The notes beneath the pieces are model-generated. The model was given only the letters and a program-made list of their open reading frames with translations, was not told where the DNA came from and made no database searches. A stretch of DNA of 56,197 nt from Sandaracinus sp. (GTDB lineage Bacteria; Myxococcota_A; Polyangia; Polyangiales; Houyiibacteriaceae): assembly GCA_002699025.1 (NCBI GenBank), contig PABA01000134.1:1-56197 (forward strand). Direction: 5' to 3'. The position numbers and the translations under genes are program-made. Positions 22,082 through 34,294 of this stretch are shown piece after piece; the stretch's first letter is position 1, and each line of letters starts with the position of its first letter.

Positions 22082-23860
22082 TCAGAACGTCGTGCCGAGC
22101 ATCAGCCCCGGCGTCACCACCACGTCCGGGTCGCGCAGGCCGAGGCGGAGCCCCAGGTGGAAGCGCCCGAAGGCCACGCCCACCGAGAAGCGGCCCGCCC
22201 TCAGGGTCTCGCCTTCCACGGCCACGCAGACCGTGTCCTCGCTCCCGTAGTAGCTGCGCTCGTCCCAGCAGCCCCAGTCGCGAGCCCAGCCGGGGGTCCA
22301 GGCGGCGCTCGCGACGAAGGCGACGCGCGGGCCGCCGAGCCGGAGCGCCAGGCCGGCCAGGGCGTGCACGTGGAAGGAGTACTTCTCGCTCGTGTCCCAG
22401 AGCTCAAGCTCGTCGGCGCGGCCGTTCAGGAAGCGGTTCATGGAGAAGCCGGCGCCGGCGAGGATGCCGAGGCGCGCCTTCGAGCGGCGGCTCCCCGTGA
22501 GGTAGGCGGGGAAGGCGAGCTCGACGGCGAGGCCCGGGGCGGGCTCCCCCGGCGTGACGAGCGCCATGGTCGGACCGACCGTGAGCATCGGGAACCAGCC
22601 GCGCCCCTCGGGCGGCGGCACGACGCGCGCGCCTTCGGGCTGGCCGAGGGGAGTGGGCGCGCTCCCGGCCTGCGGCGCCTGCGAGCTGGCCTGTGCTCGC
22701 GCCTGCACCAGCTGGCTCAGGAAGGGCGAGCGCTGCACCACGCTCGGGTCGGTCCGGACGGCGCGCTGGGCGAGGTGGAAGGCCCAGCCGGCGGCGCGCC
22801 GGGCGAGGTCGCGGGCGGGCCCCTGGGGCATCTGCTCGGGTCGCAGCCAGCCGCCGGCGCGCTCGAGGGCGACCAGCGTCGCGTCCCAGAAGTAGCCCGA
22901 GAGGAGCGCCATCACGTCCGGGTCCGTGGCCGTGCGCGCGAGCTGGGCGAAGTAGCGGAGCCGCTCCGGCGCGACGGCCCCGTCGGCGGCCTGCGCGGCC
23001 TCGGCGAGCACGTCGGGCCCGCCGAGCCGCACGATCGCGTCGACGGCCTCGGCGATGTGCCGCCGCTCGACGGGGGCTTCGCCGAGCGCGGTCCAGGCCC
23101 GGCTCATGGCGCCGCCGCGCGTGCTCTGCTCGTAGGCCGCGCGGATGGGCGCGATGGGCACGGCGACGCCGATGCCCTGGACGCCCGCCTCCGGGTTGCC
23201 GCGCGCGACGACGATGCCCACGAGCCGCTCCTCTTCGTCGATGAGGGGGCCGCCCGAGTTGCCCGGGTTCACCGAGATCCCGAGCTGCACCAGGCCGCCG
23301 TCCATGCCGGCGCTCACGATGCCGCGCGTCGACTGGGGCTGGTCCCGGTTCGGGTCCAGGGGGTAGCCGATCGCGTCGACCGTCTGACGCACGCGGAGCG
23401 GGGGCGCCTCGGCGAGGGGGAGCGTGGCCGGGTGCTCGCTCCCGGTGCGCACGAGCAGGAGCGCGAAGTCGAGGGCGTCGTCGCGATGGACGACGACGGC
23501 CGGGTGGACACCGCCGCCGCGGGGCAGCCGGACGGCGACGTGGCGGGCGTCGGCGACGACGTGCGCGGCGGTGACGATCACGCCGTTCGGGTCGACGAGG
23601 ACCCCGCTCCCGTGGCCGGCCTCCGGGACGGCGACGACCCGGCGCACGCGCTGCCCGGCGACCTCCGTCGCGCGCACCCCGCGCACGGCGAAGACGCGCA
23701 CGGTGGCCTGGTCGACGCGCCCGTAGGTGACGTCGTCCAGCGGGGCGATGCGGCTCGAACCCGGGGCGGCCGGGCGGGCCGCCTGCGCGGCGGCGAGGGC
23801 GGGGAGGAGGGAGCTGCCCGCGAGGGCGAGCAAGAGCGCGAAGGCGTGGAGGCGCGACAT
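22082..23860 (-). CDS. S1C (DegP-like) serine protease with C-terminal beta-barrel-like domain
   Basis: This 592-residue secreted protein has a signal peptide (~1-26, ending ALAAAQA). The trypsin-like fold spans ~45-245, with His in VTAAHVV, Asp in DDALDFALLL and Ser in NPGNSGGPL. A helical segment (~250-390) follows. The C-terminal ~170 residues are alternating polar/hydrophobic strands (GPTMALVTPG, HVHALAGLALRLGG, GVAFGRFHLGLRLGLR) ending in TTF, as expected for an outer-membrane barrel. It is a paralogue of the next gene upstream, which lacks the barrel part. Likely envelope-located; no PDZ domain is evident. The start is ATG 23860, behind a G-rich stretch. Confidence 0.82.
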   Translation of the reverse strand: MSRLHAFALLLALAGSSLLPALAAAQAARPAAPGSSRIAPLDDVTYGRVDQATVRVFAVRGVRATEVAGQRVRRVVAVPEAGHGSGVLVDPNGVIVTAAHVVADARHVAVRLPRGGGVHPAVVVHRDDALDFALLLVRTGSEHPATLPLAEAPPLRVRQTVDAIGYPLDPNRDQPQSTRGIVSAGMDGGLVQLGISVNPGNSGGPLIDEEERLVGIVVARGNPEAGVQGIGVAVPIAPIRAAYEQSTRGGAMSRAWTALGEAPVERRHIAEAVDAIVRLGGPDVLAEAAQAADGAVAPERLRYFAQLARTATDPDVMALLSGYFWDATLVALERAGGWLRPEQMPQGPARDLARRAAGWAFHLAQRAVRTDPSVVQRSPFLSQLVQARAQASSQAPQAGSAPTPLGQPEGARVVPPPEGRGWFPMLTVGPTMALVTPGEPAPGLAVELAFPAYLTGSRRSKARLGILAGAGFSMNRFLNGRADELELWDTSEKYSFHVHALAGLALRLGGPRVAFVASAAWTPGWARDWGCWDERSYYGSEDTVCVAVEGETLRAGRFSVGVAFGRFHLGLRLGLRDPDVVVTPGLMLGTTF

Positions 23861-23973
23861 GGGCCCCCCATCGACCCGCGCCCGAGCGGGTTGCGTCTTC
23901 GAGCTCATCTCGGCGAAGGGCGCGTCGAGAGGATGGCCACGCGGTCGATGCACGCGCGCGCAGCGCGTCCCAG

Positions 23974-25149
23974 CTAGGGCCGCCGCGGGGACGCGGGGGC
24001 TCCGAGGAGTCGCCGCAGGAAGGGCGAGCGCTCCGCGACGCTCGGGTCCGCCTCCATCGCCCGCTGCGCCAGGTACGACGCCCAGCCCGCGGCGTTCTGC
24101 GCCGTCTCCCGCGCCGGGCCTGCGGGCATCCGGTCGGGGCGAAGCCAGCCCCCGGCGCGCTCGAGGGCGACCAGCGCGGCGTCCCAGAAGAGCCCGGAGA
24201 GGAGCGCCAGCACGTCCGGGTCGCGGGCCGTGCGGGCGAGCTCGGCGAAGTGGCGGAGGTTCGAGGGGGCGGCGGCTCCCTCGGCGGCGCGCGCGGCCTC
24301 CTCGAGGATCGCCGGGCCGCCGAGCCGGACGATCGCGTCCACGGCCTCGGCGATGGCGCGGCGCTCGTCCCCTTCGCTCCCCAGCGTTCGCCAGGCCCGG
24401 CTCATGGCTCCGCTCCGCAGCATCCGCTCGTAGGCCGCGCGGATCGGCGGCACGGGGACGGCCACGCCGATGCCCTGGACGCCGGCGCCCGGATCGCCGC
24501 GGGCGACGACCAGGCCGACGAGCCGCTCCTGCTCGTCGATGAGCGGGCCGCCCGAGTTGCCGGGGTTCACCGAGATGCCGAGCTGGATCGCCCCCGAGCC
24601 CATGCTCGCGCTGACGATGCCGCGGGTGGACTGGGGCTCGTCGCGGTTCGCGTCGAGGGGGTAGCCGATGGCGTCGACGGTCTGGCGCACGCGGAGCGGC
24701 GGCGGGTCGTCGAGGGGGAGCACGTCGGGGTGGGGCGCGTCCGAGCGGATCAAGAGGAGGGCGAAGTCGTGCGCCTCGTCCTGATGCACCACGATGGCCG
24801 GGTGGACGGCCCGCCCCCCGGGGAGGCGGACGGCGACGTGGCGCGCGCCGTCCACGACGTGCGCGGCCGTGGCGATGACGCCGCGCCGGTCGACGAGGAC
24901 GCCGCTCCCGTGGCCGGCCTCGGGGACCGCGACCACGCGCCGCGCCCGCCGGCCCTGCACCTCGATGGCGTTCACACCGCGTATGGCGAAGACGCGCACC
25001 GTGGCCCGGTCGACGCGCCCGTAGGACACGGTCGCGGAAGCGGGCGTGGGCTCGGGAGTGGGCGGAGCGGGGACGTCCTGCGCGACCGCCCCGTGCAGCG
25101 GCACGAGCGCGGCGGAGCCCAGGAGCAGCGCATGGAGGAGGAGGCGCAT
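23974..25149 (-). CDS. S1C (DegP-like) secreted serine protease, paralogue of its neighbour
   Basis: This 391-residue protein has a signal peptide (~1-24, ending GAVAQ). The catalytic triad is His in ATAAHVV, Asp in AHDFALLL and Ser in NPGNSGGPL. It aligns along its whole length with residues ~40-410 of the protease at 22082-23860, including YGRVDxATVRVFAxRGV and the C-terminal helical segment, so the pair arose by tandem duplication. It ends at APASPRRP without the barrel domain. It is followed after 113 bp by its paralogue on the same strand. Confidence 0.85.
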   Translation of the reverse strand: MRLLLHALLLGSAALVPLHGAVAQDVPAPPTPEPTPASATVSYGRVDRATVRVFAIRGVNAIEVQGRRARRVVAVPEAGHGSGVLVDRRGVIATAAHVVDGARHVAVRLPGGRAVHPAIVVHQDEAHDFALLLIRSDAPHPDVLPLDDPPPLRVRQTVDAIGYPLDANRDEPQSTRGIVSASMGSGAIQLGISVNPGNSGGPLIDEQERLVGLVVARGDPGAGVQGIGVAVPVPPIRAAYERMLRSGAMSRAWRTLGSEGDERRAIAEAVDAIVRLGGPAILEEAARAAEGAAAPSNLRHFAELARTARDPDVLALLSGLFWDAALVALERAGGWLRPDRMPAGPARETAQNAAGWASYLAQRAMEADPSVAERSPFLRRLLGAPASPRRP

Positions 25150-25191
25150 GGGCCCACCCAGCATGCCGGGCCGCGCCGCCTCCCCGCATCC

Positions 25192-26831: not shown

Positions 26832-28235
26832 ATGCCGCTGAGCGATCTCTCCGACCCGGACGTGCTCCTCCGCAAGAACTGGGAGGCGCGCGTCACCCAG
26901 GGGGCCGATGGTACGCCCACCCTGCGCCCCCACTTCGTCGCCGAGCTCGGCCCTCGCGTCTGGCTCGTGGACGTGCGCGACGACGAGGAGCTCGTCGGCT
27001 CCCTGGGTCATATCCCGGGCGTCTGGCGCGCTCCGATGGCGCGCGTCGGCGAGGTCGCCGAGAAGCTCCCGCACGACACGCCGGTGGTCCTCGTCTGCAG
27101 CGACGGACGCCGCTCCGGCACGGCCGCTCGCTACCTCGGCGCCCTCGGCATGACCACCGTCGCGGCGCTCACCGGCGGCATGGCGCTCTGGCGCTCGAAG
27201 GGGTTCGGCGCCTCGCGGGACCGCACGGTGCTCGATCGCTTCCTGCGCGCGCCCGAGCCCGGCCACGGCTCGGACGGGCGCCCCCTCGACGCGGGGCGCG
27301 GAGCGGCGCACCTCACGAAGGAGGCCATCGAGGGACACGTCGGTGACCCCGGCAAGGTGCGCTCGGTGAAGCTCGCCGCCCTGCTCCTGGTCGAGCACAC
27401 CTCCTGCGTCGACGGTCGCGAGGACCGCGCGATTCTCGGCACGCCAGGCGGGGACGCGGGGGAGCTCGTGCTCGGGCTCGCCTGCGTCGAGAAGGCCGGC
27501 GGGAAGGTCGACACGGGCAAGATGCCGAGCCTCACGCGGGCCTTCGCGGACACCTTCGGCGGCATCTATCTGCACACGGACAACACGGCGCTCAACCGGC
27601 TCGCCCGGGCGCTCCAGGAAGACCGGCGCCTCGAGGGCGCCGTGGCGCACCTGCACACGGTCCACGACTGGACGACCTTCCTCCGCCGCCCGCCGGAGGC
27701 GCTCCGCACCGCGCTCCTCGATCACCTCCTCCAGCCCGAGCACGTCGGCTGCGGGCACCTCGCCCTCGCGATGCGCAACGCGGACCAGTACCAGGTGCGC
27801 ACCGAGCTCATCACCTCGTTCTTCGAGGCCTTCTACACGGAGCTCTGGGAGGGCGCGCCCGACCTCGAGTGGGTCGTGCTCGGCGGCAGCCACGCCGAGG
27901 GCGCGGTCGCGAACGTGACCGTCGAGGGCGAGCTCTGGCCCTTCACGGAGGTGCCCATGCTCGCGCCCTCCGTCGAGGGCGTGCAGATGTTCGTGAACCA
28001 CCCGCAGGTCGTCGCCTACATGCGCGAGCAGACGGCGCGCTTCTTCACGAGCCGCGTCGATCACCTGCTCCCGCTCGGCAAGGACGACGCGAGCGCGATG
28101 GGGGAGCTGCTCCCCGAGCTCGGCGCGACCCAGGCCGGCGCCACGCTCTCGGCGCTCGCGAAGGGGCTCCCGCTCTTCGGCATCCACTTCGCGCCCGACG
28201 GCACGGTGAGCGTCGAGGCGTCCGGCACGGTCTGA
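26832..28235 (+). CDS. rhodanese domain fused to a zeta (cadmium) carbonic-anhydrase-like domain
   Basis: This is a 467-residue cytoplasmic protein. Residues ~30-130 form a rhodanese domain: WLVDVRDDEE, then the active-site loop VLVCSDGRRSG with Cys89, then GGMALWRSKGF. Residues ~155-467 resemble diatom cadmium carbonic anhydrase repeats. They have HTSCVDGRED with Cys192/Asp194/Arg196, GTPGGDAGE, PEHVGCGHLALA with Cys307 and His298 or His304 as candidate metal ligands, and a late VLGGSHAEGAVANVTVEGEL segment. That assignment is from memory of the family, so it is tentative. If right, it would interconvert CO2 and bicarbonate, with dabBA 10 kb away in the same window. A lipoprotein gene follows after 7 bp. 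Confidence 0.65.
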   Translation: MPLSDLSDPDVLLRKNWEARVTQGADGTPTLRPHFVAELGPRVWLVDVRDDEELVGSLGHIPGVWRAPMARVGEVAEKLPHDTPVVLVCSDGRRSGTAARYLGALGMTTVAALTGGMALWRSKGFGASRDRTVLDRFLRAPEPGHGSDGRPLDAGRGAAHLTKEAIEGHVGDPGKVRSVKLAALLLVEHTSCVDGREDRAILGTPGGDAGELVLGLACVEKAGGKVDTGKMPSLTRAFADTFGGIYLHTDNTALNRLARALQEDRRLEGAVAHLHTVHDWTTFLRRPPEALRTALLDHLLQPEHVGCGHLALAMRNADQYQVRTELITSFFEAFYTELWEGAPDLEWVVLGGSHAEGAVANVTVEGELWPFTEVPMLAPSVEGVQMFVNHPQVVAYMREQTARFFTSRVDHLLPLGKDDASAMGELLPELGATQAGATLSALAKGLPLFGIHFAPDGTVSVEASGTV

Positions 28236-28737: not shown

Positions 28738-28842
28738 CGCGCGCCGGCCCGGCGAAGCGCGGGGAGCGAGCGGCGCAGGCGGGGCCGGCGACTGGGAACG
28801 GCCGAGGCGTGCCTTCCCCTCTCGCGGCGAGCCGGGCTGTGG

Positions 28843-28848
28843 TACGCC
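28843..28848 (+). promoter_or_regulatory. putative -10 box TACGCC for the SLC13-type permease
   Basis: TACGCC ends 8 nt before ATG 28857. Confidence 0.3.
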
Positions 28849-28856
28849 AGCCCTCG

Positions 28857-30620
28857 ATGAGCGCGAACGGCTGGATCACGGTCGGCGTCGTCGTCGCCAT
28901 GGTGGCCGCGATGGCTCTGAGCCTCGCGGGGCCGGACATGGTGCTCGCCGCCGGCCTGACCCTCCTCGTCGCGACCGGCGTGCTCGGGCCCGACGAGGCC
29001 TTCCAGGGCTTCGCCAACCCGGCCGTCGTCACCATCGGCGCGCTCTTCGTCGTCGCCGCGGGCGTCCGCGAGACCGGCGCCCTCGACTACGTGGGTCGTC
29101 GGGTCCTCGGCACGCCGCGCAACGTCCCGGGGGCCCAGCTCCGCGTGATGCTCCCCGTGGGCGCGCTCAGCGCGTTCCTGAACAACACGCCCGTCGTCGC
29201 GATGTTCGTGCCGCTGCTCCAGCGCTGGGCCAAGCAGACCGGGCTCCGCGCCTCGCTCCTGCTCATGCCCTTGAGCTACGCGGCGATCCTCGGCGGGACC
29301 TGCACGCTGATCGGGACGAGCACGAACCTGGTCGTCGCCGGCATGGCCCAGGCCCGCGATCCGAGCCTCGACTTCGGCGTCTTCGAGACGAGCCCGCTCG
29401 GGCTGCCGGCGCTGGTCGTGGGCGTGCTCTGGGTGCTCTTCGCCTCGCGGCGCGTCTTGCGCGACCGCACGGGCGTCGACACGAGCTCGCAGGCCTCGCG
29501 CCAGTACCTCATCGCGCTCCGCGTGGAGAAGGGCTCGCCGGTCATCGGGCAGACCATCGAGGCGAGCGGCCTCCGTCGCCTCCCGGGCCTCTACCTGGTG
29601 GAGCTCGAGCGCGACGGGCAGGTCTTCCCGGCCGTCCCGCCCTCGGCGCGGCTCCAGGAGGGCGACGTGCTCCGCTTCACGGGCGTGGTCGAGACCGCCG
29701 TCGATCTGCGCAAGCTGCGCCTGCTGCCGGAGACCGATCAGGTGGACAAGCTCGAGGGGCGGCCCGAGCGGCGCTGGGTCGAGGCGGTGGTCGCGGCGCA
29801 GTCCTCGCTCGTCGGGCGGAGCGTGCGCGAGGGGGGCTTCCGCACGAAGTACAACGCGGCGATCATCGCCGTGCATCGGCAGGGCGAGCACGTCGAGGGG
29901 CGCGTCGGCGACATCGTGCTCGCGCCGGGCGACGTGCTCCTGCTCGAGACGCACCCGACCTTCGCGCGGAAGCACCGCGGGGACCCGGCCTTCGCGCTGG
30001 TGAGCGAGATCGAGGGGAGCGCGCCGCCCCGGCACGAGAAGGCCGGGCTCGCGTCGCTGATCCTGCTGACGATGGTCGGCGTGAACGCGGCGGGGCTCGT
30101 GCCGCTGGTGACGGCGAGCCTGGTGGCGGCGGGGGCGATGCTGCTCTGCCGTTGCCTGAGCGGGGCGGAGGCGCGTGGGAGCCTCGACGTGCGCGTGCTG
30201 CTGACCGTGGGGAGCGCGCTCGGCGTGGGGCTGGCGATGGAGCGGAGCGGCGCGGCGCAGCTGATCGGCGAGGCGGTGGTGGCGCTGGTGGAGCCCTACG
30301 GGAGGGTCGTCTTCCTGGCGGGCATCTACGCGGTGACGGCCCTGCTCGCGGGGGCGGTCTACACGGCCACCTCGGCGGCGCTGATGTTCCCGGTGGCGGC
30401 GAGCGCGGCGGCGGAGCAGGGGCTCCCGCTGATGCCCGTGGCGCTGCTGGTGATGATCGCGGCGTCGACGGCGTTCAGCACGCCGGTGGGCTACGCGGCG
30501 AACCTCATGGTCTACGGGCCGGGCGGGTACCGCTATGCGGACTTCCTGCGGCTCGGGTTGCCGCTGCAGGCGCTCGTGGGGACGTCGACCGTGATCGTGC
30601 TGGAGACGTTCTACTTCTGA
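28857..30620 (+). CDS. SLC13/DASS-family permease with two RCK_C (TrkA-C) domains
   Basis: This 587-residue inner-membrane protein has an N-terminal membrane half (~1-200) with FLNNTPVVAMFVPLL and GGTCTLIGTSTNLVV, the SNT-type substrate loop of the DASS family. Two cytosolic RCK_C-like domains follow (~215-300, ending EGDVLRFTGV; and ~305-385, ending PGDVLLLETHP). A second membrane half has ATSAALMFPVA and STPVGYAANLMVYGPGGY. This architecture is typical of SAC1-like sodium/sulfate or anion symporters. With a rhodanese two genes upstream, sulfur-anion uptake is one possibility (inference). The start is ATG 28857, directly before the first helix. Confidence 0.85.
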   Translation: MSANGWITVGVVVAMVAAMALSLAGPDMVLAAGLTLLVATGVLGPDEAFQGFANPAVVTIGALFVVAAGVRETGALDYVGRRVLGTPRNVPGAQLRVMLPVGALSAFLNNTPVVAMFVPLLQRWAKQTGLRASLLLMPLSYAAILGGTCTLIGTSTNLVVAGMAQARDPSLDFGVFETSPLGLPALVVGVLWVLFASRRVLRDRTGVDTSSQASRQYLIALRVEKGSPVIGQTIEASGLRRLPGLYLVELERDGQVFPAVPPSARLQEGDVLRFTGVVETAVDLRKLRLLPETDQVDKLEGRPERRWVEAVVAAQSSLVGRSVREGGFRTKYNAAIIAVHRQGEHVEGRVGDIVLAPGDVLLLETHPTFARKHRGDPAFALVSEIEGSAPPRHEKAGLASLILLTMVGVNAAGLVPLVTASLVAAGAMLLCRCLSGAEARGSLDVRVLLTVGSALGVGLAMERSGAAQLIGEAVVALVEPYGRVVFLAGIYAVTALLAGAVYTATSAALMFPVAASAAAEQGLPLMPVALLVMIAASTAFSTPVGYAANLMVYGPGGYRYADFLRLGLPLQALVGTSTVIVLETFYF

Positions 30621-31998: not shown

Positions 31999-32004
31999 TA
32001 TGCT
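31999..32004 (+). promoter_or_regulatory. putative -10 box TATGCT deciding the start of the Cys-rich lipoprotein
   Basis: TATGCT ends 7 nt before ATG 32012. It overlaps the alternative ATG at 32000, which argues that 32012 is the real start. Confidence 0.45.
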
Positions 32005-32011
32005 GTCGCGC

Positions 32012-34294
32012 ATGGTCCTTCGCTTCCTGCTCGCGGCAACCCTCCTGCTCGTCGCCTGCGGCCGTTCGCGCCTGGTCCCGCCGACGCCCCCGGTGGACGC
32101 GGGGCCCTCGGACGCGAGCTCGAGCTTCGACGGAGACACGCCGGACGCCTTCCTTCCGCGGCCCGACGGCGGGGAGTGCGCGAGCGACGACGACTGCCTC
32201 GGCGACCGCGTCTGCGAGGGCGGCGTCTGCGTCGCGGGGGTCGAGTGCCGGACGGATCTCGACTGCCCGGCGGGGGAGATCTGCGAGGACGCGACCTGCG
32301 AGCGCGAGGTGGAGTGCGCGAGCGACGGCGACTGCCCGGCCGGGAGCGCCTGCGTGCGCGGCGTCTGCGAGCGCGAGGTGGAGTGCGTCGAGCGCGCCGA
32401 CTGCGAGCCGGGCTTCGACTGCGTGGGGGGCACCTGCGAGGCGCTGCCCGAGTGCGTGGTCGACGGCGACTGCGGCGCCGCGGGCTTCACCTGCGAGGGG
32501 GGGACCTGCGCCTTCACCGGCGAGTGCCGGAGCGACGCCGAATGCACCGTGGGCTTCGCCTGCGAGGGCGCGCGCTGCACCTTCGTCGGCGAGTGCCTGG
32601 CGGACGGGGACTGCGCGCCGGGCTTCCGCTGCGACGCGGCGAGCTGCGTGCCGACCGGCTGCCTGACCGATCGGGACTGCGAGGAGGGCGAGGTCTGCGA
32701 CGCGCTCTCGCGCCGCTGCGTGCCGGCGAGCGAGTGCGAGCTCGACGCGGACTGCCCGGTGGGCGAGCTCTGCTTCTTCGGCCGCTGCTCGCCGCTCCGC
32801 CGCTGCCGCGACAGCTCGGACTGCCCGCCCGACGAGCGCTGCGACGGCTTCCGCTGTGTGGGCGACGACGCCTGCCGGGAGGACGCGGACTGCCCCGATG
32901 GGCTGCGCTGTGACTTCGGCTTCTGCCAGCCGACCGAGTGCATGGGCGACGCGGACTGCCTCTTCGGCTGGGAGTGCGTCGTCGGCCGCTGCTGGCCCGG
33001 CTCCTTCTGCGAGTCCGACGCGGACTGCCCCTTCCCGGGCCAGATGTGCGTCGGGCGCACCTGCCAGGGCTCGGAGTGCGAGGTCGCCGCCGACTGCCCG
33101 CCGGCCCTGCCGCCGAACGAGCCGGCCTGCATCGACGGGGCCTGCGTGCCGCTGCCGCCGCCGAGCTGCGGCGTCGACGCGGACTGCCCGGCCGGCCAGG
33201 TCTGCAACCTCGGCTTCTGCGGCGAGCCGGACCCGACCTGCCCGGAGGTGCCCTGCCCGGACGGTCAGGTCTGCGAGGACGCGGTCTGCGTGCCGCCGCC
33301 CGAGTGCGCGCGCGACGTCGACTGCATGGGCTCGGGGCTGGTCTGCGACGACGGGCGTTGCGTCTTCGGCGGCGAGTGCGTCGCCGACGCGGAGTGCCCC
33401 GAGCTCTACCGTTGCCGGGACGCGGCCTGCGTCTTCGTCGGCGAGTGCGCCCGGGACTCGGAGTGCGAGGAGGGCTTCGAGTGCGTGCTCGGGAGCTGCC
33501 GCTTCGTGGGCGAGTGCCGGAGCGACGCCGACTGCGCCGCCGGGGAGAGCTGCGTGACCGGGAGCTGCCAGAGCGAGCCCTGCCGCGAGAACACGGACTG
33601 CCCCGTGGGCACCGTCTGCAACATCTCCACGCGGGCGTGCATCCCGGACCAGGGCTGCGCCGACAGCCTCGACTGCCCGCTCGGATGGACCTGCCTCGGC
33701 GACCAGTGCTACGCGCTCCAGGCCTGCGCGCCGCCGGGCGAGATGGGCGGCTGCCCCGAGGGGACGTTCTGCGCGGACTTCGGCGCGTGCTTCATCGCCC
33801 CCGAGTGCACGCGCGACGACGACTGCGCCGGCGGGGAGGTCTGCGAGAGCCAGTTCTGCCAGCCCCCGCGCTGCGACGGGGATCGAGACTGCAACCACGG
33901 CTGGGAGTGCGTCGCCGATCGCTGCTTCCCCTGGCTCTTCTGCGGCACGGACGCGGACTGCGGACCTGGGCGCATGTGCATCAACAACCAGTGCACGGTC
34001 GAGGGGGGCTGCGTGGAGGACGAGGACTGCCCGCCCATGCAGAGCTGTCTCGCGGGCTTCTGCGTCTTCGTGCCCCCGAGCGAGTGCGAGGTCGACGCCG
34101 ACTGCGGCGCCGGGGAGATCTGCAACTTCGGCTTCTGCGAGGAGAGCACGCGCTGCCGCATCACGGCGGACTGCCCGGAGCCGGAGCAGGTCTGCATCGA
34201 CGAGTTCTGCCGGACGCCGATCGAGTGCCGCGTCGACGAGGACTGCGCCGGGAGCGAGATCTGCGACGAGCGGGGGCAGTGCGTGCCGCGCTGA
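32012..34294 (+). CDS. lipoprotein made of 30 tandem Cys-rich ECxxDxDCxxGxxCxxGxC modules
   Basis: This 760-residue lipoprotein has the signal MVLRFLLAATLLLVAC (Cys16) and an Asp/Ser linker (PVDAGPSDASSSFDGD). I count 30 modules of about 24 residues with the pattern [E/x]CxxDxDCxxGxxCxxGxC, for example ECASDDDCLGDRVCEGGVC. Each has four Cys, expected to form two disulfides. The module resembles Dickkopf-type Cys-rich repeats found in many myxobacterial surface proteins. The protein is probably an extended, rigid, surface-exposed rod. It is followed after 12 bp by a transmembrane Ser/Thr kinase on the same strand. The start is ATG 32012; ATG 32000 is an alternative. Confidence 0.85.
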   Translation: MVLRFLLAATLLLVACGRSRLVPPTPPVDAGPSDASSSFDGDTPDAFLPRPDGGECASDDDCLGDRVCEGGVCVAGVECRTDLDCPAGEICEDATCEREVECASDGDCPAGSACVRGVCEREVECVERADCEPGFDCVGGTCEALPECVVDGDCGAAGFTCEGGTCAFTGECRSDAECTVGFACEGARCTFVGECLADGDCAPGFRCDAASCVPTGCLTDRDCEEGEVCDALSRRCVPASECELDADCPVGELCFFGRCSPLRRCRDSSDCPPDERCDGFRCVGDDACREDADCPDGLRCDFGFCQPTECMGDADCLFGWECVVGRCWPGSFCESDADCPFPGQMCVGRTCQGSECEVAADCPPALPPNEPACIDGACVPLPPPSCGVDADCPAGQVCNLGFCGEPDPTCPEVPCPDGQVCEDAVCVPPPECARDVDCMGSGLVCDDGRCVFGGECVADAECPELYRCRDAACVFVGECARDSECEEGFECVLGSCRFVGECRSDADCAAGESCVTGSCQSEPCRENTDCPVGTVCNISTRACIPDQGCADSLDCPLGWTCLGDQCYALQACAPPGEMGGCPEGTFCADFGACFIAPECTRDDDCAGGEVCESQFCQPPRCDGDRDCNHGWECVADRCFPWLFCGTDADCGPGRMCINNQCTVEGGCVEDEDCPPMQSCLAGFCVFVPPSECEVDADCGAGEICNFGFCEESTRCRITADCPEPEQVCIDEFCRTPIECRVDEDCAGSEICDERGQCVPR

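Follow-up and report, generated by a model that had tools for sequence, protein, structure and literature searches.

The window analyzed here, a 56,197-nucleotide stretch of Sandaracinus sp. DNA, carries on its forward strand, at positions 26,832–28,235, an open reading frame that starts with ATG and encodes a 467-residue protein with an N-terminal rhodanese domain and a C-terminal domain resembling zeta-type carbonic anhydrase (CA) (Table 1). The frame opposite this gene is likewise open; the gene is assigned to the forward strand because of homology and an in silico gene call. The fusion of the two domains is real and not a product of chance: 73 homologous loci have essentially invariant motif residues, and the domain order is conserved in nearly all untruncated myxobacterial copies.

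Table 1. Features of the fusion gene and its downstream neighbor, in coordinates of the window.
Feature	Position	Strand	Basis
Rhodanese/zeta-CA-like fusion gene, 467 aa	26832..28235	+	Architecture kept among homologs
N-terminal rhodanese domain, residues about 18–137 (Pfam stretch 45–122)	26883..27242	+	PF00581 and structural match to BpPRF
Rhodanese active-site loop CSDGRRSG, including Cys89	27096..27119	+	Translation; Cys present here
C-terminal zeta-CA-like domain, residues 164–467	27321..28232	+	Model and CDCA fold match
CVDGR: predicted ligand Cys192, Asp194/Arg196 dyad	27405..27419	+	Conserved 72/72; aligns with CDCA CVDGR
GTPGGDAGE glycine loop	27438..27464	+	G206, G207 and G210 invariant, n = 73
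HTD: predicted ligand His248, and Asp250	27573..27581	+	73/73; aligns with CDCA HGD
Helical insertion, residues about 251–299, between His and second Cys ligand	27582..27728	+	Secondary structure against CDCA spacing
GCGH: predicted ligand Cys307; His309	27747..27758	+	73/73; aligns with CDCA GCGF/Y
G-x-H-x-E motif: Gly352, His354, Glu356	27885..27899	+	His354/Glu356 73/73; aligns with CDCA GSHxE
Downstream anion transporter: CitMHS, two TrkA-C, DASS-like	28839..30620	+	PF03600 E 1e-64; TIGR00785 below cut-off

A preliminary description of this gene had proposed an intact rhodanese joined to a domain like the cadmium carbonic anhydrase (CDCA) of diatoms, an interpretation that is partly supported. 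All of the motifs that it quoted (VLVCSDGRRSG, CVDGRED, GTPGGDAGE, VGCGHL, and GSHAEGAVANV) are found in the translation of the 467-residue frame. The rhodanese domain is indeed intact: residues 45–122 match PF00581 (E 8.3e-12), and Cys89 is in place within the catalytic loop CSDGRR, which fits the CxxGxR-type rhodanese pattern. The best structural match of this domain is BpPRF (5ve3; Z 16.9, rmsd 2.0, 114 aligned residues).

The assignment of the second domain was borne out in fold and active-site motifs and failed at the level of profile membership. Residues about 155–467 matched nothing in Pfam, in NCBIfam, or among PDB sequences, and a HMMER profile search of the PDB found nothing for this domain. 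The CDCA profile PF18484 gave no match to residues 155–467 at E values up to 10, and none in the query protein, the family members, or the remainder of its own genome; the domain is also without a match to PF00484 (Pro_CA). Because rhodaneses dominated the structural matches of the full-length model, AlphaFold2 was run on the C-terminal domain alone, with 61 aligned sequences as input, yielding a model with a pLDDT of 94.9 and a pTM of 0.92. The best Foldseek match of this model in the PDB was CDCA 3uk8 (prob 0.98, E 0.055). In VIA-align comparisons, five CDCA entries scored Z 11.4–12.3 (rmsd 3.2–3.7, 176–184 of about 210 residues), followed by the weak matches beta-CA 1ddz (Z 4.0, 168 aligned, rmsd 5.0), truncated haemoglobin (3.9), and CsoSCA (3.5), so that only CDCA entries stand out; the full-length model agrees (CDCA 3boh, Z 10.8). 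Given a related fold without a profile match, we file the modeled domain as a new, distant branch with the zeta-CA fold, a sister of CDCA and not a member of it.

Profile–profile alignment of the family with CDCA gave a score of 29.5 (E 0.0019), a value not attained by any of 100 CDCA profiles with shuffled columns (maximum 24.2); the hhalign probability, taken by itself, is low (16%). Global hhalign over the whole domain produced a meaningless end alignment because of an insertion, whereas local and half-domain alignments worked; half by half, CVDGR, HTD, GCG, and GSHxE of the family pair with CVDGR, HGD, GCG, and GSHxE of CDCA. Cys192, His248, and Cys307 thereby align with the CDCA metal ligands and are predicted to form an intact metal site, a set matching the two Cys and one His of zeta-CAs (PMC4730368). 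Both cysteines had been named as ligands in the preliminary description, and profile alignment and invariance uphold them; its histidine candidates, His298 and His304, are unconserved (position 304 is N, Y, C, F, T, etc. in relatives), and the invariant histidine is instead His248 of the HTD motif. Residues invariant or nearly so among the 73 loci are C192, D194, G195, R196, G206, G207, G210, E220, G243, H248, D250, G306-C307-G308-H309, R323, H354, and E356, and the Asp-Arg dyad of the CxDxR motif is kept in all 72 scored sequences. Counted from the CVDGR cysteine, the histidine and second cysteine lie at +56 and +115 in the window protein; in CDCA the first histidine of HGDH lies at +52 and the GCG cysteine at +62, spacings that fit C263, H315, and C325, which we take to be the published ligands. 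The longer second spacing (115 versus 62) is attributable to the helical insertion; with roughly 50 residues added between two of the ligands, the substrate could be a different one.

Diatom CDCA1 (PF18484; 3bob, 3boh, and 3uk8) is thus the closest known system, sharing the fold, the order CVDGR, GG, HxD, GCG, GxHxE, the (here predicted) Cys/His/Cys ligand set, and a similar Cys-to-His spacing. The new family differs from it in the missing PF18484 match, in the insertion before the second cysteine ligand, in an invariant His309 where CDCA has Phe or Tyr (GCGH versus GCGF/Y), in having a single domain against three repeats, and in the fused rhodanese. As the preliminary description had supposed, no characterized fusion of this kind came to light: literature searches, covering few subscription papers, found no description of a CDCA–rhodanese fusion. 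The beta-CAs and CsoSCA also use two Cys and one His as ligands together with an Asp-Arg dyad; the likeness of the new domain to them lies in these features, whereas the structural matches are weak and a Pro_CA match is absent. On the rhodanese side, BpPRF is the closest-matching structure and its relatives occur in the same operons as family members, but the catalytic partner of the rhodanese in BpPRF is an MBL-fold dioxygenase and not a CA fold.

To our knowledge, zeta-CAs are usually described as a class found almost exclusively in diatoms and other protists. Bona fide CDCA homologs (L018–L026) were observed in nine of 284 sampled Myxococcota genomes above the Pfam cut-off, with E values down to 3e-82; a further marginal match (L027, 17 bits) proved to be an RtcB-like frame and was rejected. 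These homologs share phylum and fold family with the new domain, and genome G008 carries both kinds; unlike the new family, they match PF18484 and are short, stand-alone, and rhodanese-free.

The 73 loci were obtained by scanning 84,980 species genomes for the C-terminal domain. Almost all are in Myxococcota, including Nannocystis, Corallococcus, Polyangium, Archangium, Labilithrix, Minicystis, and many metagenome-assembled genomes (MAGs); the remaining carriers are a few Gemmatimonadota and one member of Rhodothermales. The domain is found in 15 of 58 relatives' genomes and in 23 of 284 genomes of a phylum sample, and twice in the genome of the window itself. A plasmid search returned rhodanese-only matches. 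The nearest homolog (L028; about 65% identity) belongs to a MAG labeled Candidatus Binatia, reflecting either transfer or a misbinned contig.

An N-terminal rhodanese is present in nearly all untruncated myxobacterial copies, and solo domains without rhodanese also occur (L081, L092, L094, L097, L098, and L099). One protein, L095, has its rhodanese at the C-terminus (PF00581, E 2e-13); the nearest relative of this C-terminal rhodanese, at 72% identity, is encoded at L099, where it has a gene of its own immediately downstream of the solo domain. The two domains were therefore joined at least twice, the second, C-terminal fusion being located in Gemmatimonadales. A quick family tree, in which the deepest branches are weakly supported, sets an exported/lipoprotein group apart from 55 cytosolic members that form one clade (support 100). 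The rhodanese catalytic Cys is kept in all 14 scorable rhodaneses of the exported group; of 52 cytosolic members, 40 have Ser at this position, 11 have Cys, and one has Asp, and the window protein lies in a three-member subclade that retains Cys. With the cysteine so often lost, we rejected the rhodanese as an invariant partner. The best-supported reading of these sequences is that the rhodanese would be catalytic in the sulfur-operon branch and the window subclade and degenerate in most cytosolic members.

At 12 exported or solo loci, the neighbors include at least one of YeeE-type/DUF6691 pairs, SulP, and an MBL-fold persulfide dioxygenase with rhodanese; YeeE is a thiosulfate importer (PMC9774590). 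The second copy in the genome of the window repeats this arrangement: a sulfide-oxidation-type cluster (L101:5378–13963, contig C50) contains a zeta-like lipoprotein fusion, with SulP (PF00916, E 6e-116), DUF6691 (E 3e-42), YeeE, and two MBL-fold-like frames, one of them a BpPRF-like persulfide dioxygenase–rhodanese (E 1.5e-116). Across this 9.2 Mb genome DUF6691 is single-copy and SulP is present in four copies. In sampled members, the N-terminal rhodanese of the exported group is about 44–54% identical to the rhodanese of the persulfide dioxygenase–rhodanese, which suggests that the domain was taken from a protein of this type in a sulfide-oxidation operon. Such company would equally suit a hydrolase of COS or CS2 built on the zeta-CA fold, the released H2S passing to rhodanese and persulfide dioxygenase. 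An enzyme with a beta-CA-type fold acts as a COS hydrolase elsewhere (PMC8209446), and the twofold origin of the rhodanese fusion is in keeping with the same idea. We nevertheless consider it unlikely, as the largest clade mostly lacks the rhodanese cysteine and is found alongside bestrophin, whose CA partners in this order are otherwise ordinary beta-CAs.

Bestrophin is encoded at 14 cytosolic loci, in nearly all of them as the direct neighbor and in two orientations, lying either upstream (same strand) or downstream of the zeta-like gene; the two tested belong to PF25539 (E 7e-64 and 2e-94). Its presence requires at least seven changes on the family tree, and, as a control, bestrophin-bearing genomes hold one to six bestrophins each. 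Of 58 relatives, 13 carry a bestrophin and a beta-CA no more than 1 kb apart, where about 0.07 would be expected; 12 of these genomes are of one genus and the other, G051, is from another family. These represent an apparent bacterial bestrophin–CA pair in their own right (in G051 at L109:1122–2638, contig C26). Both kinds of pair are present in G051: a classical beta-CA gene shares four bases with one of its bestrophins, and the other bestrophin lies 91 bases from the zeta-like match. Since bestrophin also pairs with beta-CA, the zeta-like gene fills the slot of a CA, which is the strongest argument for CA activity. The pairing mirrors the partnership proposed for algal CO2 concentration, where, in the Chlamydomonas model, bestrophins deliver bicarbonate to CA (PMC6708349). 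The copy in the window adjoins neither bestrophin nor SulP; a CitMHS/DASS-type anion transporter 0.6 kb downstream is a possible partner.

The complement of other CAs was also considered. The genome of the window (95.9% complete) contains no alpha-, beta-, iota-type (PF08332), or canonical zeta-CA and has one YrdA-like gamma homolog (L108; G000:C84:13549–14049) with 44% identity to E. coli YrdA. Carriers G008 and G054 are likewise without alpha- and beta-CA, G008 having a canonical CDCA. As 11 of 14 well-assembled carrier relatives also have some PF00484 match (short and weak in G003), replacement of other CAs is not general.

The computed fold, ligand alignment, conservation, recurrent fusion, and gene contexts, together with the absence of the other main CA classes from the genome of the window, are best read as indicating a new zeta-like CA family that has anion transporters as partners and a connection to sulfane sulfur. 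The C-terminal domain would be a metal-dependent zeta-fold hydratase and is probably a genuine carbonic anhydrase. From these data we infer the metal, CO2 as substrate, the coupling to transport, and the role and origin of the rhodanese. Cys192, His248, and Cys307 would hold Zn (or Cd), with Asp194/Arg196 positioning the metal-bound water for interconversion of CO2 and bicarbonate. Cytosolic members may serve the neighboring bestrophin channel, and exported lipoprotein or solo members the SulP exchanger within a sulfide-oxidation operon: oxidation of sulfide to sulfate yields acid, and a CA beside SulP could supply bicarbonate to be exchanged for sulfate. Where the rhodanese bears its cysteine, as in the exported members and the window clade, it may carry persulfide and so couple or regulate the hydratase through sulfane sulfur; the Cys-less rhodanese of most cytosolic members probably serves in docking or regulation.

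The constant company of transporters, and a metal-site domain that carries a fused pseudo-rhodanese, would also fit a non-enzymatic sensor, its site binding Zn/Cd or persulfide and regulating the adjoining transporter. We judge this quite improbable, as the Asp-Arg dyad and the catalytic-type residues are invariant down to about 31% identity and would be needless in a sensor. Delivery of sulfur by the rhodanese to the second domain's metal site, or a single coupled sulfur–carbon reaction, accords with the catalytic cysteine of the window protein and the scorable exported members but is very improbable, and delivery unlikely as a general mechanism, since Ser replaces Cys in most cytosolic relatives while the metal motifs never vary, and solo domains exist.

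Returning to the zeta-like CA family, we advance its widest form only tentatively, holding it somewhat more doubtful than not: that an unrecognized zeta-fold CA family extends across Myxococcota and has outlying members in Gemmatimonadota and Rhodothermales; that it fuses CO2/bicarbonate chemistry to sulfane-sulfur chemistry; that with SulP or bestrophin it forms a bicarbonate–sulfate transport unit of sulfide oxidation; and that it replaces alpha- and beta-CA in some genomes. A 2026 survey of microbial CAs found many genomes apparently CA-less after BLAST-based searching (PMC13098186). If the proposal is correct, a zeta-like family invisible to sequence searches in common soil and marine myxobacteria, here in a genome lacking alpha- and beta-CA, would fill part of this gap, and sulfide oxidation would be connected with the supply of bicarbonate through the recurrent association with rhodanese, persulfide dioxygenase, and SulP.

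Two further regions of the window were noted. On the reverse strand, positions 22,082–25,164 hold, by eye, two adjoining paralogous secreted trypsin-like proteases, apparently a tandem duplication, with the stretches TVRVFA-RGV and NPGNSGGPLIDE in common. On the forward strand, positions 32,000–34,294 contain a lipoprotein-like reading frame built of many Cys-rich DxDC..G..C repeats.
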